Source: an uncultured Bacilli bacterium
GTDB lineage: Bacteria; Bacillota_I; Bacilli_A; RFN20; CAG-826
NCBI GenBank assembly: GCA_944358985.1
Contig: CALVSI010000001.1
Location: 77,846-141,845 of the forward strand
Direction: 5' to 3'
Length of the DNA stretch: 64,000 bases
Shown piece by piece: positions 286 to 32,228 of this stretch. Made by a program: the position numbers and the translations under genes. The notes under the pieces were generated by a model. The model was given only the letters and a program-made list of their open reading frames with translations. It made no database searches and had not been told where the DNA came from. Positions within the stretch are counted from its first letter, which is position 1, and every line of letters starts with the position of its first letter.

Positions 286-576
286 ATGTTAACCAATGAT
301 AATAAAAGACATTTAAAATCATTATCCAATCAAATAAAATTACGATATCAAATTGGCAAAAACGGATTAACAAAAACTAGTTTTGATTTATTTGATAAAG
401 CTTTAACCGCACACGAATTAATTAAAATAGATATTTTAAAATCATATTCTAATCCAATTAATGAATTAGCGTTTGATTTATCTAGCAAATTAAACGCTGA
501 TATTGTTAGCATTGTTGGACGAGTTATTTGTCTTTATCGTTATTCTGAAAAAAATGGAGTAAAACATATTTTATGA
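286..576 (+). CDS. yhbY: YhbY/CRS1 family RNA-binding protein
   Basis: A 96-residue protein, the usual size for single-domain CRM (YhbY) proteins, which bind pre-50S ribosomal particles. Family hallmarks are seen: IGKNGLT near residues 23-29, a KIDIL strand, and IVSIVGRVICLYR toward the C terminus. No clear Shine-Dalgarno precedes the ATG, which lies just after the yqeH stop, so translational coupling is likely. Its TGA stop overlaps the next ATG (ATGA), showing that TGA is a stop here. Confidence 0.9.
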   Translation: MLTNDNKRHLKSLSNQIKLRYQIGKNGLTKTSFDLFDKALTAHELIKIDILKSYSNPINELAFDLSSKLNADIVSIVGRVICLYRYSEKNGVKHIL

Positions 577-1676
577 TAAAAAATATTGTCCTATTTGGTG
601 GATCGTTTGATCCAATTCATAACGGACATATTAACATGGCTTTAAAAGCTCAACAATTTTTAGGTGGAAAAAATAATTGTAAAGTAATTTTTTTGCCAAA
701 TCGCGTCAGTGTTTGGAAAGATGAAAGCGTTGATGCAAATGACAAGCTAAACATGATTAAATTAGCAATAAAAGATTATGTTAACCTGGATGTTGATGAT
801 TTCGAATTAAATTCGCAAACGGAAAATTATACATATTTATCAATTCAACATTTTATAGATGTTTATAAAAACGAAAAAATTAAACTTTATTTTTTAATAG
901 GAAGCGATCAAGTTGAATTGTTTCATCTATGGAAAAACGCTGAAGAAATATCAAACCTTGTACAACTTATATATTATCCACGTCCTAATTTCAAATTCAC
1001 AAACGATAATATTAATAAATTCAAAATAATCAAAGTAAGCGGTGATGAATTAGTGGATGTTTCAAGCAATTCCATTCGCGATTTAAATAATTTAGACATC
1101 CCAGATGTGGTTTTAAATTATATAAATAATCATGATTTATATTTTTTAAGAAAAATTGCTAAATATATCGATAACAAAAGATATTTGCATAGCAAGTCAG
1201 TTGCAATGCTTGCAAAACAAATAGCGGTTTCAAATAATATTGAAAAGCCATGGCGGTATTATATAGCTGGAATTTTACATGATGTTGGAAAAAATGTTTC
1301 AGAAAGTCAACAAAAGAAAATCGAAACCGAATATAAAGAATATATGCCAATGTCATATAAACTATATCATCAATTCAATAGTGCTTATATCGCACACGAC
1401 GATTTTAAAATAACCGATGAAGATATTTTATTTGCCATAAGATATCACGCAACAGGGAATAAGAACATGTCGTTATTAGCAATGACAGTTTACGCCGCAG
1501 ATAAAATCGATCCATTGAGAGGATATGATTCTAGTGATATGATTAATAAAATGAAATCAAATATCATTGAAGGATTCAAATACGTATTAGGGCGAAATAA
1601 AGAATATTTAATGAGCAAAAATTCTAACATCGATAACATATTAACTAAACAATGTTTTGAATGTTATCTAAATTAA
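573..1676 (+). CDS. nadD-yqeK: Fused nicotinate-nucleotide adenylyltransferase NadD and HD phosphohydrolase YqeK
   Basis: A 367-residue fusion. Residues 1 to about 188 are NadD, which adenylylates nicotinate mononucleotide in NAD synthesis: nucleotidyltransferase motif GGSFDPIHNGH at 9-19 and the late VSSNSIR motif. Residues from about 190 to the end are YqeK, an HD-superfamily protein: HSKSVAMLAKQ, then HDVGK, and a later RYHATGNK. YqeK of other Firmicutes hydrolyses diadenosine tetraphosphate symmetrically. In B. subtilis these are two adjacent genes; here one frame covers both, as reported for some Mollicutes relatives. It starts inside the yhbY stop. It is the last rightward gene before the dif-like site. 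Confidence 0.92.
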   Translation: MIKNIVLFGGSFDPIHNGHINMALKAQQFLGGKNNCKVIFLPNRVSVWKDESVDANDKLNMIKLAIKDYVNLDVDDFELNSQTENYTYLSIQHFIDVYKNEKIKLYFLIGSDQVELFHLWKNAEEISNLVQLIYYPRPNFKFTNDNINKFKIIKVSGDELVDVSSNSIRDLNNLDIPDVVLNYINNHDLYFLRKIAKYIDNKRYLHSKSVAMLAKQIAVSNNIEKPWRYYIAGILHDVGKNVSESQQKKIETEYKEYMPMSYKLYHQFNSAYIAHDDFKITDEDILFAIRYHATGNKNMSLLAMTVYAADKIDPLRGYDSSDMINKMKSNIIEGFKYVLGRNKEYLMSKNSNIDNILTKQCFECYLN

Positions 1677-1696: not shown

Positions 1697-1724
1697 ACTT
1701 CGCATAATGACTATTATGTAAACC
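1697..1724. other. dif: Putative dif site (XerCD recombination, replication terminus)
   Basis: The 28-bp element has an 11-bp left arm ACTTCGCATAA, a 6-bp centre TGACTA and an 11-bp right arm TTATGTAAACC. The right arm is the XerD-type arm of the Firmicutes dif consensus except for its last base; compared with the B. subtilis dif as I remember it, about 21 of 28 positions agree, with most differences in the centre and inner left arm. It lies exactly where gene orientation switches from rightward to leftward, as expected where two replication forks meet. A Xer recombinase is encoded 3.7 kb away. Confidence 0.72.
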
Positions 1725-1845: not shown

Positions 1846-2388
1846 TTACAACGCTCCATTTATGATTAAAAAATAGTAATTGCGTAAAATTAAATCGACT
1901 TTTTCTTTAGATAAATAAAGACGATTGTTTTCATGTTGCGGACCATTTATTACTTGTTTTGTATATAGTCTTAATTTATCAATTGTTCTAATTTGATTAA
2001 TTACCGCTAAAGTTTGCTGACCATCTTTTAATCCTTTGACTTCTCCGATATTTATGTCACTTCTTGGATGCGGTCCGAAACGATTTGTTTTCAAAGGACA
2101 AACTATTACCAAAGGATTATGTATACCAGAATCTGCTAACACAACTCCGTAATGACGATTTGAAAATTCTGCATTAACATTTATTCCCCAATCAAATTCA
2201 TAAATTTCTCCTTTCTTCAAATTATACTTAACACTATGATTTAATGAATAAATAGAATACTCTAATTGTCTTTTTATCCATTCTACTTGTCCTAGCAACT
2301 TTTTAAATGCCTCGTTTTTTTCTTGTGTTAAATTTGTTGTTTGAAAATTCATTTCTTTTTTAAAATTTAATTCATTTTGTTCAATCAT
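1846..2388 (-). CDS. PemK/MazF family toxin-like protein with N-terminal helical extension
   Basis: 180 residues. From about residue 57 the protein follows the PemK/MazF ribonuclease fold: KKGEIYEFDWG at the first strand, RHYGVVLADSG, LVIVCPLKT, and the conserved late strand VINQIRTIDKLRLY. The first 55 residues are an extra charged helical segment not found in minimal MazF (about 110 aa). No antitoxin-like small gene is adjacent, so it is an orphan or uses its own N-terminus; that is inference. The ATG has a strong AGGAGG seven bases upstream, and this Shine-Dalgarno is also the 3' arm of a terminator-like hairpin. Confidence 0.75.
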   Translation of the reverse strand: MIEQNELNFKKEMNFQTTNLTQEKNEAFKKLLGQVEWIKRQLEYSIYSLNHSVKYNLKKGEIYEFDWGINVNAEFSNRHYGVVLADSGIHNPLVIVCPLKTNRFGPHPRSDINIGEVKGLKDGQQTLAVINQIRTIDKLRLYTKQVINGPQHENNRLYLSKEKVDLILRNYYFLIINGAL

Positions 2389-2441: not shown

Positions 2442-3230
2442 TTAAAAAGAATATTTATTTTTTAAATATCGCTTAAGGAAATACATGATTATGTCAACCA
2501 AACCTATAATAACAATCGCATGTAAAGAATATGCCATGATTTGATCAACAAAAGCAAAATTATATGCTTGTCTAATCAACATTCCTAATCCATGTATTGA
2601 ATTATTTCCAATTAAAACTTCCGCCATAAGGCTAACTTTCATACCTAAGCCTAATGTTTGAAATGACGCTAAAAGTAAATATGGTATCAAATTTGGTATT
2701 TTTATATTTAAAATAGCTTTCATATTATGTAAACCAGCATCTACTTTTATTGAATTAACAATATTTTTGTCTAAACTTTCATATCCATTGATTACAGCTT
2801 CATAAATTATTGGAAACATAACCAAAAAAACGATTAAAAACAAAGACATAAATGGTTTAAATAAAACGATTAGAATTAAAATTACCGCTGCGGTTGGCAC
2901 TGTTTTTAAAATTAGTACTAATGGCTTTAAAATTAAACGTACAGTATGGAATTCACCAGCTAATATTCCTAATATAAATCCAATAGCAAAACTTAATAAA
3001 AAAGATAGAATGAGCCTAAGAAAAGTCCATCCTATCGCTATATATAATTCACTTGTTGTATAATAATTAAAATATAAATTTAAAACTTCAATCGGCGTTG
3101 GAAATAAAGAATTATTAATAGTTATTGCTAGAATATACCATATGATGAAAATAGCAACTATGCCAATTACGACATATAACACATTTAAAACTTTTTTTAA
3201 TAATTCTTTTTCCCTAGCGCTTAATTTCAT
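2442..3230 (-). CDS. ABC transporter permease (SsuC/TauC/ThiX-type)
   Basis: 262 residues with about six hydrophobic segments (residues ~15-37, 65-90, 105-150, 185-205, 235-255). The BPD_transp_1 EAA-type loop is seen after VINGYESLDKNIVNSIKVDAG, followed by IKIPNLIPYLL, as in nitrate/sulfonate/taurine and thiamine-precursor importers. The start overlaps the stop of the preceding lipoprotein gene by 4 bases, so the two are translationally coupled. No ATPase gene is adjacent; the ATP-binding subunit must be encoded elsewhere. The substrate cannot be told from this sequence. Confidence 0.85.
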   Translation of the reverse strand: MKLSAREKELLKKVLNVLYVVIGIVAIFIIWYILAITINNSLFPTPIEVLNLYFNYYTTSELYIAIGWTFLRLILSFLLSFAIGFILGILAGEFHTVRLILKPLVLILKTVPTAAVILILIVLFKPFMSLFLIVFLVMFPIIYEAVINGYESLDKNIVNSIKVDAGLHNMKAILNIKIPNLIPYLLLASFQTLGLGMKVSLMAEVLIGNNSIHGLGMLIRQAYNFAFVDQIMAYSLHAIVIIGLVDIIMYFLKRYLKNKYSF

Positions 3231-4177
3231 AATATGTAGTCAGAATAATCTTCAGTAATACCTAATATTTCAAAAAAATTATTAATATCTAAATTATTTT
3301 CCTCTAGTAAAGCAAATCCATTAGGAGTGTCTTGACTACTTTGAACCTTGTACGCAATATTGGAATTAAAACCAAATAATTTTTGTTGATCTTCTAAACT
3401 TAATTGTTCATCCATTGTTTGTTTCATATATAAAGGATCATTTATGCATGTGTCGATTCTTTCATCGATTAAGGCCATTTGTTCATCGAAATATCCTTTG
3501 TGTTCATTATAATAATTCATATTAACAAATAATCCAGCTTGAGGAATTCCAGACTGTCCTGTTTCTTCTTCCCACATATCTTTAAATGAAGCGATAACTG
3601 TTAGGTGATCATATGTCGCAGCTTTTTCATTTTCCATTATTGTAGATAAAACAGGTTGTGCTACAACAACATAATCGACTTTTTCTCCCTCATACATTCC
3701 TGATGCTAAGATAGCGCCGGCTTCCGATGTACTAGCAACATATGAAGTATTATCGATTATCTCTTGGTTTTCTCTATATAAGTATTTAAAAGCTAAATCT
3801 GGTATAAGTCCCTCGCCAAAAGAAACGATTTTATCTTCGCTTGTTGGTTGATCTGTCTTATCGATTCCGACCAAATATAAATTGCCACCAGTAATTATTC
3901 TAGCTAATTTATAATGTCCATCGTTTGCTTTTAAGTTTTTTAAACCATTATAAAAATCAAAAACAACCATGCCATAGTCGTCAGTAGATAATTGTGCTAA
4001 AACATTCGCGGGTGTTTGATTAGTTTCAAATGTACCATTTGTTCCTTGATCATAAAATGCAATCGCAGGTGCACCTGATGGTGATATAGTTTTCATATAC
4101 GGCAAAATTTCTTTTGGTGCACATCCAGCCAATAAACTAGTTAAAACTACAAATCCTAAAATAATATTTTTTTTCAT
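3227..4177 (-). CDS. ABC transporter substrate-binding lipoprotein
   Basis: 316 residues with a lipoprotein signal peptide: MKKN, a hydrophobic core, and lipobox SLLAGC with the lipidated cysteine at about residue 19. The mature part (GAPAIAFYDQG, FVNMNYYNEHKGYFDEQM) fits the NMT1/THI5/SsuA-like periplasmic binding fold, which agrees with the SsuC-like permease encoded directly downstream with a 4-base overlap. It would bind solute outside the membrane and deliver it to the permease. The ATG has an AGAAGG-type ribosome binding site about 6 bases upstream. The ligand is unknown. Confidence 0.82.
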   Translation of the reverse strand: MKKNIILGFVVLTSLLAGCAPKEILPYMKTISPSGAPAIAFYDQGTNGTFETNQTPANVLAQLSTDDYGMVVFDFYNGLKNLKANDGHYKLARIITGGNLYLVGIDKTDQPTSEDKIVSFGEGLIPDLAFKYLYRENQEIIDNTSYVASTSEAGAILASGMYEGEKVDYVVVAQPVLSTIMENEKAATYDHLTVIASFKDMWEEETGQSGIPQAGLFVNMNYYNEHKGYFDEQMALIDERIDTCINDPLYMKQTMDEQLSLEDQQKLFGFNSNIAYKVQSSQDTPNGFALLEENNLDINNFFEILGITEDYSDYIL

Positions 4178-4188
4178 AATACCTTCTT

Positions 4189-5400
4189 TTAAAATAGTTC
4201 TTTAATAACGCTACCAATTAAATTATTTGGCTTTTCTAATTTAAAATTATATAGAATAGTCGCACCTATATCAGCGAAAGAATTTCTTTTATCTAACATT
4301 TTCCCATTATCGAATAATTTACTATACATCAATAATGGAACTCGTTCTCTAGTGTGATCAGTGCCATGCCAAGTTGGATCGTTTCCATGATCAGCAGTAA
4401 TAATTAAAAGGTCATCTTGTCGCAAGTCTTTTAACAATGAATTTAATTTGACATCAAATTGCTCAATAGCTTTTCCATAACCAAGAGGATTTCGTCTATG
4501 TCCAAATTCAGAATCAAATTCAACAAGATTAACAAAACATAAGCCAAGCTTAAAATTAGGATTATTAACTTCGTTTTGTGTAATATCCATACCATTATCA
4601 TTTGAAACAGTTTTTTGTGTTTTTGTTACGCCGTATCCATCAAATATATCACCAATTTTTCCCACACAACTAACCATTATTCCATTGTCATCTAAAATAT
4701 TCATAACGGTTTCATGTGGTGGCTTTAAAGCTAAATCATGACGGTTTGGTGTACGTTTGAAATTATCTTTGTTTGTACCAATAAAAGGTCTTGCAATAAC
4801 TCTTCCAACGCGATATTTACTCTGCATGCATAATTTTCTAGCAATTTCACAGCAGCGATAAAGTTCTTCTAAACCTGTAACTTCTTCATGCGCGGCGATT
4901 TGTAAGACCGAATCAGCACTTGTATAAACAATCAAAGAATTTTCTTTCATTTGTTGCTCACCAAGTTCTTTGATAATTTCTGTTCCGCTGGCGGCAACAT
5001 TTCCAATAATTTTATGACCAGTTTCTTTTTCAAGTTCATCAATTAATTCTTTTGGAAAACCAGTTTCAGTAAACGTAACAAATGGTTCGACAGTTTTAAT
5101 ACCCATCATTTCCCAATGGCCAGTCATTGTATCTTTTCCAACACTTTCTTCTTGTGCCTTACAGACAAAACTATAGGGGTGTTCTACTTTATTGGTGCCT
5201 TGAATATTATCTAAATCGCCTAATCCTAACCTATTTAAAGTAGGAATATTAAGACCATGACATTCATTAGAAATATGGACTAAGGTGTTTGCACCTTCAT
5301 CGTTATATCGATAAGAAGTTTCATCATAACCAATACCAACACTATCCATAACAATGACAAATACTCTTTTAAATTTTTTAAAGCGTTCAGCGTTATTCAT
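4189..5400 (-). CDS. deoB: Phosphopentomutase
   Basis: 403 residues, the normal length of DeoB. It interconverts ribose/deoxyribose 1-phosphate and 5-phosphate, linking nucleoside salvage to the pentose phosphate pathway. Alkaline-phosphatase-superfamily metal motifs are clear: [10 protein letters not shown] near the N terminus, [13 protein letters not shown] with the catalytic threonine, and the C-terminal [19 protein letters not shown]. Start chosen at the ATG preceded by GGAGG. It lies 11 bases upstream of the lipoprotein start, so it may be cotranscribed with the importer, which might suggest nucleoside uptake; that link is inference. Confidence 0.96.
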
Positions 5401-5455: not shown

Positions 5456-6337
5456 TCAGTTATTTTTCATAAAAGAATCATAGGCAGAAATAATTCTTTT
5501 AGATGACACGTGCGTGTAGATTTGTGTGGTGGCAATATTAGTGTGCCCTAACATTTCTTGAACTATTCTTAAATCCGCACCATTTTCTAACATGTGTGTC
5601 GCAAAGCAATGTCTTAAAGTATGAGGAGAAATATTTTCTTTAATTCCCGCTAGTAAAGCATACTTTTTTATCCTTTTGAAAAAATATTGTCTAGATAAAG
5701 GCTCACCATATTTACTCAAAAATAAATATTCAGATTTTACTTTAACATTTTTGCTTCTCACATCGTTTATATATTTTACCACAAATTCACTAGCAAATTC
5801 TCCAAAAGGAATTTTTCTTTGTTTTTTACCTTTTCCCATTACTGTTACAATGTTTTCTTTTAAATCAATATCACCTTTTTTAAGGTTTAATAATTCGCTG
5901 ACACGTAAACCGCTCGCATACATCATTTCAAGCATAGCTTTGTCTCTTATTTCATCATCTTTTTCTAAATTTGGTGCATCTAATAAAGCTTCTACTTCCT
6001 CAAATGAAATTAAAGTTGGAAGATGAAAAGGCTTTTTTGGTGCATCAACTTCTTCAATGGGTATATTTAATATTTCTTCTTTAACTAAAAACATAAAAAA
6101 TCCTTTTAAAGATGATAATCTTCGCAGTGCTGTAGTCACACTTTTTTTATTTTCCAATTGGAATTTTAAAAATTCTGATAAATCATCTTCTTCAATTTCG
6201 TTTGTATCAGTTATTTTTTTGAAAACATCAGTGTACAAATTAATATCTTCTAGATAAGCTTTGCAAGTTAAAATCGAAAGGCCCTTTTCCGCCAAAAGAT
6301 ATTGGTAATAATTATCTATTGCGTCTTTTATGTCCAT
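5456..6337 (-). CDS. xerD: XerC/XerD-type tyrosine recombinase
   Basis: 293 residues, the standard size for XerC/XerD. An N-terminal SAM-like core-binding domain (residues 1-90) precedes the catalytic domain. Active-site residues are all present: ASGLRVSELLNL (Arg I), GKGKKQRKIPFG (Lys), HTLRHCFATHML (HxxR), LGHTNIATTQIYTHV (His and the nucleophile Tyr). It would resolve chromosome dimers at dif with FtsK. The dif-like site lies 3.7 kb away. Start has AAAGGAGA about 8 bases upstream and overlaps the end of dinB by 26 bases. XerC versus XerD cannot be decided here; some Bacilli use a single Xer. Confidence 0.9.
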   Translation of the reverse strand: MDIKDAIDNYYQYLLAEKGLSILTCKAYLEDINLYTDVFKKITDTNEIEEDDLSEFLKFQLENKKSVTTALRRLSSLKGFFMFLVKEEILNIPIEEVDAPKKPFHLPTLISFEEVEALLDAPNLEKDDEIRDKAMLEMMYASGLRVSELLNLKKGDIDLKENIVTVMGKGKKQRKIPFGEFASEFVVKYINDVRSKNVKVKSEYLFLSKYGEPLSRQYFFKRIKKYALLAGIKENISPHTLRHCFATHMLENGADLRIVQEMLGHTNIATTQIYTHVSSKRIISAYDSFMKNN

Positions 6338-28354: not shown

Positions 28355-28374
28355 AAATGTCCTCCTTTTTTAAA

Positions 28375-28465
28375 CTAATGACTCGCTTGCAAGGTATAAT
28401 GCAATGCATTAATTTATGACCTTTTTAAGGCGGTTGTAGCCAAATATAGGCGACAACGAAAGTAA
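28375..28465 (-). ncRNA. Probable L21 ribosomal protein leader
   Basis: The untranslated stretch before rplU contains a stem on the minus strand with arms GTTGTCGCC (28457-28449) and GGCTACAAC (28441-28433), 7-base loop and one internal mismatch, followed by CCGCCTTAAAAAGGTCAT and then a region around AATGCATTGCATT and CCTTGCAAG. Such a leader upstream of rplU is known in Firmicutes (L21_leader), where L21 is thought to bind it. Assignment rests on location and the stem; the covariance model was not run. Confidence 0.5.
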
Positions 28466-31999: not shown

Positions 32000-32222
32000 A
32001 CTAATTCCTCCTAAAAAATAAAAAAACGTCCTCCATAAGGACGCAATTATGCGCGGTACCACCTTAATTTATTAATCAATTAATACACTCGATTCGTTAA
32101 CGCCGATATACGTAATTACTTAATCCTTGCAAACTGACTTCAACAATCTTTTCTAGACCCCACTTCCACCTTAAGGGGCTCTCTATCTAGCAGTATTATT
32201 TACTACTTTTTGTTCAACGGAC
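32000..32222 (-). promoter_or_regulatory. T-box riboswitch leader of valS
   Basis: The minus-strand leader contains the T-box core AAGGTGGTACCGCG (around 32066-32052), which pairs with the ACCA end of uncharged tRNA, directly followed by an intrinsic terminator. Upstream are the structured stem I and II/III regions. When uncharged tRNA-Val rises, the antiterminator forms and valS is transcribed. I could not identify the valine specifier codon with confidence. Confidence 0.93.
32019..32043 (-). terminator. Attenuator (terminator) of the valS T-box
   Basis: Minus strand arms CGTCCT (32043-32038) and AGGACG (32032-32027), 5-base loop, then TTTTTTT. It immediately follows the T-box sequence and is 20 bases before the valS ribosome binding site. 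Confidence 0.85.
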
Positions 32223-32228
32223 AATTAA

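Follow-up and report, generated by a model that had tools for sequence, protein, structure and literature searches.

A canonical chromosomal dif site at the replication terminus of an uncultured Bacilli bacterium and its conserved neighbourhood with xerD

Linkage of a recombinase gene to its target site has been described for the single-recombinase systems XerS and XerH, where it was read as acquisition of a module, and the genes of XerC and XerD have been described as scattered (PMC2731167; PMC9765430; PMC5357621). In a survey of 592 genomes, xerC was reported to lie near dif in most cases, with xerD closer to the origin (PMC3025954). In the literature searched, which was short of most subscription papers, no report of class-wide dif-xerD linkage was found, and nothing relevant came up on xerD-dif linkage in Acholeplasma, Erysipelothrix or RF39, or on such linkage with deoB. 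Here we describe a window of 64,000 nucleotides (G000:C1:77846-141845) from an uncultured Bacilli bacterium, the assembly of which comprises 1.168 Mb in 47 contigs at 96% completeness, with 148 kb in the home contig C1. Positions 1697-1724 of the window are confirmed as a canonical chromosomal dif at the replication terminus. The site itself is ordinary; its conserved neighbourhood with xerD is a modest but real novelty in the layout of classical Xer systems.

The 28-mer read off the window is ACTTCGCATAA-TGACTA-TTATGTAAACC, in which two 11-bp arms with partial dyad symmetry enclose a 6-bp centre, the layout of a dif. With zero to three mismatches allowed, it is found once in the assembly, at G000:C1:79542-79569. 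It lies inside a 169-bp gap between two convergent genes, the fused nadD-yqeK ending at 1676 and the PemK-like gene ending at 1846 (Table 1). The same gap holds most of a small structure at 1747-1856, where an imperfect 15-bp inverted repeat (GGAGCGTATTAATTA / TAATTACAACGCTCC) flanks an ORF of 20 codons that has a Shine-Dalgarno-like AGGAG; being broken in the near-identical relative G003, this ORF is probably not a gene.

Table 1. Features of the dif region (window positions).
Feature	Position	Strand	Evidence and remarks
nadD-yqeK, fused	573..1676	+	scores exceed the TIGR00482 and TIGR00488 cut-offs; last rightward gene before dif
dif, chromosomal, 28 bp	1697..1724	+	uniqueness, one per genome across the order, conservation far above flanks
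XerC-arm of dif, ACTTCGCATAA	1697..1707	+	order consensus ACTTCGcATAA
6-bp central region, TGACTA	1708..1713	+	low-information columns; differs among relatives
XerD-arm of dif, TTATGTAAACC	1714..1724	+	order consensus TTATGTtAAct
PemK/MazF-like protein	1846..2388	-	Pfam PF02452, 33.8 bits; first leftward gene after dif
ABC transporter permease	2442..3230	-	PF00528; inserted between deoB and dif, differing among relatives
putative substrate-binding lipoprotein, same transporter	3227..4177	-	lipoprotein-like N-terminus; always beside the permease in relatives
deoB, phosphopentomutase	4189..5400	-	NCBIfam PRK05362, 542.7 bits; between xerD and dif
xerD, tyrosine recombinase XerD, 293 aa	5456..6337	-	transcribed toward dif; NCBIfam TIGR02225

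The genes around dif are partly conserved and partly variable. The deoB gene is the ancestral operon partner of xerD, and the deoB-xerD pair is conserved. The PemK/MazF-like protein has an N-terminal extension; its gene adjoins dif in many relatives, is missing in others, and has no obvious antitoxin partner. The putative lipoprotein gave no Pfam match. On the other side, parE-parC-like genes for a type II topoisomerase lie beside plsY at G000:C1:71905-76455 (window -5940 to -1390), and these putative topoisomerase IV genes stop ~3 kb left of dif. Since 7 of 20 families have parC near dif, genes for decatenation and dimer resolution cluster at the terminus. Farther into the window, a ribosomal L21 leader (28368-28445) and a T-box leader (32034-32226) were detected with Rfam, both on the minus strand.

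The site was searched in a sample of 58 genomes of the order as the pattern ACTTCGNATAATNNNNNTTATGTNAA, allowing no more than one mismatch, and the reversed pattern served as control. Exactly one match was found in 49 of the 58 genomes, and the reversed pattern had zero matches in the same sample, which puts the site far beyond chance. Over 40 order genomes (G003 being omitted as near-identical to the window's genome), the mean column information is 1.55 bits in the 28 bp, compared to 0.37 bits in the 40-bp flanks. Both arms are near-invariant, and variation falls in the 6-bp centre and at the last two positions. The 28-bp site that an earlier note on this DNA had picked out for its near-consensus XerD arm proved unique and conserved in relatives. 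The wider class carries ACTTCctATAATaTATATTATGTtAAct as its dif-like site, a sequence that we take to be close to the dif of B. subtilis. Two families of small genomes, f11 and f22 (mostly 0.6-1.6 Mb, a mycoplasma-like size), have neither a dif-like site nor a close XerD, the dif search there giving two matches that look like chance; this suggests that both have lost the whole dif/Xer system.

The cumulative GC skew of the home contig reaches its maximum at C1:79460, 82 bp from dif, and falls afterwards. Gene polarity switches at the same gap: among genes of at least 100 aa on C1, 55 point rightward and 7 leftward to the left of dif, compared to 5 rightward and 47 leftward to its right. In the 20-kb loci of relatives, the skew maximum lies at most 1.5 kb from dif in 22 of 29, and a few genomes of the order have their maximum, taken over 20 kb, 2-10 kb away from dif. 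Because the home assembly is fragmented, the skew of the whole chromosome was judged by proxy, from sampled stretches of two relatives. The first, G003, has a XerD 99% identical to that of the window and an assembly of 1.11 Mb in three contigs. Its sampled skew turns from negative to positive at dnaA (C2:321,921) and is negative on contig C1; on the dif contig C3 it is +0.11 in the 10 kb before dif and -0.17 in the 10 kb after. The second, G022, has a 1.482-Mb contig on which dif occupies 298,532-298,557 and the local skew peaks at 298,591; its dnaA lies 725 kb from dif, equivalent to 48.9% of the contig. In both relatives the sole sustained rise-to-fall switch seen is at the orthologous dif, with dnaA roughly opposite. 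Where assemblies of relatives are better than the window's, the skew maximum comes within ~60 bp of dif. Thus the skew extremum on the home contig and the proxies for the whole chromosome bear out the proposal that the window spans the terminus, and the flip of transcription noticed at this gap is real. Separately, two samples of G022 (L172-L173, within G022:C1 400001-490000) have a skew sign slightly off for their replichore, perhaps owing to a recent inversion or insertion.

Neither the SRS octamer of B. subtilis nor the KOPS octamer of E. coli occurs on contig C1. The heptamer GAAGAAG, which presumably resembles the FtsK guide motif of lactococci, points toward dif 73 times vs 8 times away on C1; this bias is no evidence for a guide motif, because many purine-rich words are skewed equally.

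The Xer protein encoded at 5456-6337 scores 326.7 bits against the XerD profile TIGR02225, 293.4 bits against XerC and 125.3 bits against XerS. Its best match in the PDB is E. coli XerD (1a0p), and the catalytic motif residues R, K, HxxR, H and Y are all present. A second Xer, encoded on contig C17 in the gene order topA-xerC-rpsB, has XerC as its top profile, with 328.2 bits; this gene order is the usual location of xerC in Firmicutes. Both scores are slightly under the curated cut-offs (329.6 for XerD and 335.15 for XerC), yet each protein still scores best to its own profile. Moreover, an FtsK with alpha, motor and gamma domains is encoded on the same contig as dif, ~72 kb away. The genome thus encodes XerC, XerD and the gamma domain of FtsK, and therefore an ordinary two-recombinase system rather than an XerS/difSL.

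By analogy with the established biology of XerCD and dif, FtsK would pump the DNA of the terminus toward dif after replication, where XerC would bind the left arm and XerD the right arm. XerD, activated by FtsK, would cleave first and XerC next, so that two copies of dif would be recombined at the 6-bp centre and a chromosome dimer converted into two monomers. Binding, order of cleavage and activation by FtsK at this dif are inferred from the known systems. We regard it as nearly certain that the 28-mer is the single dif of the chromosome, placed where the replication forks meet and serving dimer resolution by the predicted XerC, XerD and FtsK.

A full Xer gene had been noticed 3.7 kb from the site and called unusually near. 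It is the xerD of Table 1, and its proximity proves to be conserved. Of the order genomes, 41 have dif and xerD on the same contig (40 fetched relatives and the window's genome); the distance between the two is 1.2-11.7 kb in every one, with transcription of xerD running toward dif, and in all but two of them xerD lies on the side of the XerD arm. The remaining 8 of the 49 order genomes have dif and xerD on separate contigs; among them, the partial blocks of G012 are compatible with linkage across the contig break. A search of named GTDB genomes that started from xerD yielded 23 order loci with dif 2.6-4.3 kb downstream, in addition to 4 further order loci in which the contig ends 0.9-3.2 kb past xerD. 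The block conserved throughout the order reads plsY-parEC-yqeGH-nadD / dif / deoB-xerD-dinB-dxs-xse-nusB. Family f8 has the blocks on either side of dif exchanged, with xerD still within 5-7 kb. Two f8 loci of one genome (L219 and L220, G050) have a second tyrosine recombinase gene beside xerD, on the opposite strand and at a contig end, which suggests a mobile element inserted there.

The linkage extends to much of the class. Outside the order, 24 of the 34 genomes with both on the same contig are linked (0.7-10 kb), and 10 are unlinked (36-236 kb). The linked families are f10, f12, f14, f15, f16, f17, f20, f23 and f25, to which a later phylum-wide sample, comprising only members of the same class, added f27 (5.7 kb) as the tenth; f18, f19, f24 and f26 are unlinked, and in f13 at least 85 kb separates dif from xerD, the two lying on different contigs. 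Nine of the linked neighbours, from eight or nine families of the class, all score best to the XerD profile. No dif was found within 6.7-10 kb of nine Bacillaceae xerD loci, nor within the flank examined of the xerD loci checked from other groups. The unlinked families occupy three places inside the XerD tree, and since they are nested there, an old linkage with several losses would be the simplest reading, drawn from the tree of this single gene.

Why the linkage persists is a separate question. Inherited order may account for it, an ancestral deoB-xerD operon beside dif having simply stayed unmoved in most lineages, an explanation that we rate as just on the probable side. As inertia predicts, the whole block around dif is kept in the order, and several families lack the linkage. 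Since the interval between dif and xerD is short and the operon ancient, inertia is at least as likely as selection. Against it, almost everything else near dif has changed outside the order while xerD remained.

It is the comparison among families that leans towards more than chance persistence. Of the 13 families outside the order from which loci were fetched, 9 have xerD near dif and 8 have deoB there, and no further gene recurs in more than 6; the set includes every same-contig family bar f26 and f27, and the choice of loci for it favoured linked genomes. The gene most widely retained near dif is thus xerD, and it stays there in G065, G067 and G138, which have no deoB in between, and in G169, where an ORF of no assigned identity lies between dif and xerD. 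The genes past xerD vary by family (dinB, hemW-lepA and others), and the left-side neighbours vary too. Because genes beyond xerD and across dif turn over in this way, breakpoints are evidently tolerated near xerD, and they rarely fall between xerD and dif; the swapped blocks of f8, with xerD still within 5-7 kb, point in the same direction. Selection might accordingly hold xerD beside dif at the terminus, in a module-like manner as in xerS-difSL, for instance through the dose or timing of late replication or through locally made XerD finding dif, and we give this somewhat less than an even chance. Plain inheritance of an ancient deoB-xerD operon over a short interval could nevertheless suffice. 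Furthermore, the XerD tree has at least three separate points at which the linkage disappeared while dif and XerD were retained, so it is not essential. The transcription of xerD toward dif was not counted as evidence, because it is expected of any leading-strand gene. More tentatively still, the two-recombinase Xer system of most of the class could be a cis-linked module in which selection holds xerD at dif and xerC is free to wander; location would then matter, for example through dosage timed to the terminus or through XerD, the first subunit to be activated by FtsK, being delivered locally.

Two other identities of the site itself can be set aside. If the nearby Xer were the sole enzyme, in a single-recombinase system of the XerS/difSL kind, a recombinase gene linked to its site would be explained, but such a system is very improbable given the 6-bp centre and canonical arms; it was rejected on the XerS score of 125.3 bits, far from the cut-off of 267 (NF003462), and on the separate XerC gene of contig C17. 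That the 28 bp represent an attachment site, or a relic, of a dif-integrating element (IMEX) instead of a working dif is scarcely credible: variable genes (PemK-like, ABC transporter, large unidentified ORFs) do adjoin dif in different relatives, and elements are known to integrate at dif in other bacteria, but the site is a single copy without a flanking repeat, holds an orthologous position across the order and sits at the skew peak, and its uniqueness and synteny, with no second dif-like copy flanking mobile genes, led us to reject this identity.

With the canonical dif at 1697-1724, the terminus and the dimer-resolution system are now placed for a large uncultured gut lineage. A linkage of recombinase and site hitherto reported for single-recombinase Xer systems is widespread in classical XerC/XerD systems, which raises the question whether the single-recombinase modules derived from a linked XerD/dif ancestor. 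Linked and unlinked lineages also offer natural material for studying whether dimer resolution depends on where xerD lies. In addition, the linkage to xerD aids in finding dif and the terminus in fragmented metagenome assemblies.

Compared to the described systems, the locus combines features of both kinds. The xerH-difH of epsilonproteobacteria likewise has its recombinase gene linked to the site (PMC2731167), but uses a single recombinase in place of a XerC/XerD pair. The xerS-difSL of streptococci and lactococci has its recombinase gene beside the site at the terminus, as here, but works with a single recombinase on an atypical 31-bp site (PMC5357621), compared to a XerC/XerD pair and a canonical dif. 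The resemblance to xerS-difSL pointed out in the earlier note therefore stands for the layout, the Xer gene lying 3.7 kb from the site in a conserved arrangement, and fails for the enzyme and the site, which are the XerD of a pair and a canonical 28-bp dif. In site and enzymes the closest likeness is to B. subtilis, where dif also has 28 bp (11+6+11) with near-identical arms and is served by two recombinases, CodV (XerC) and RipX (XerD). The deoB-xerD operon and the Firmicutes-type XerC gene beside topA are shared as well. The difference is one of position: dif and xerD, which we take to be far apart in B. subtilis, are neighbours here.
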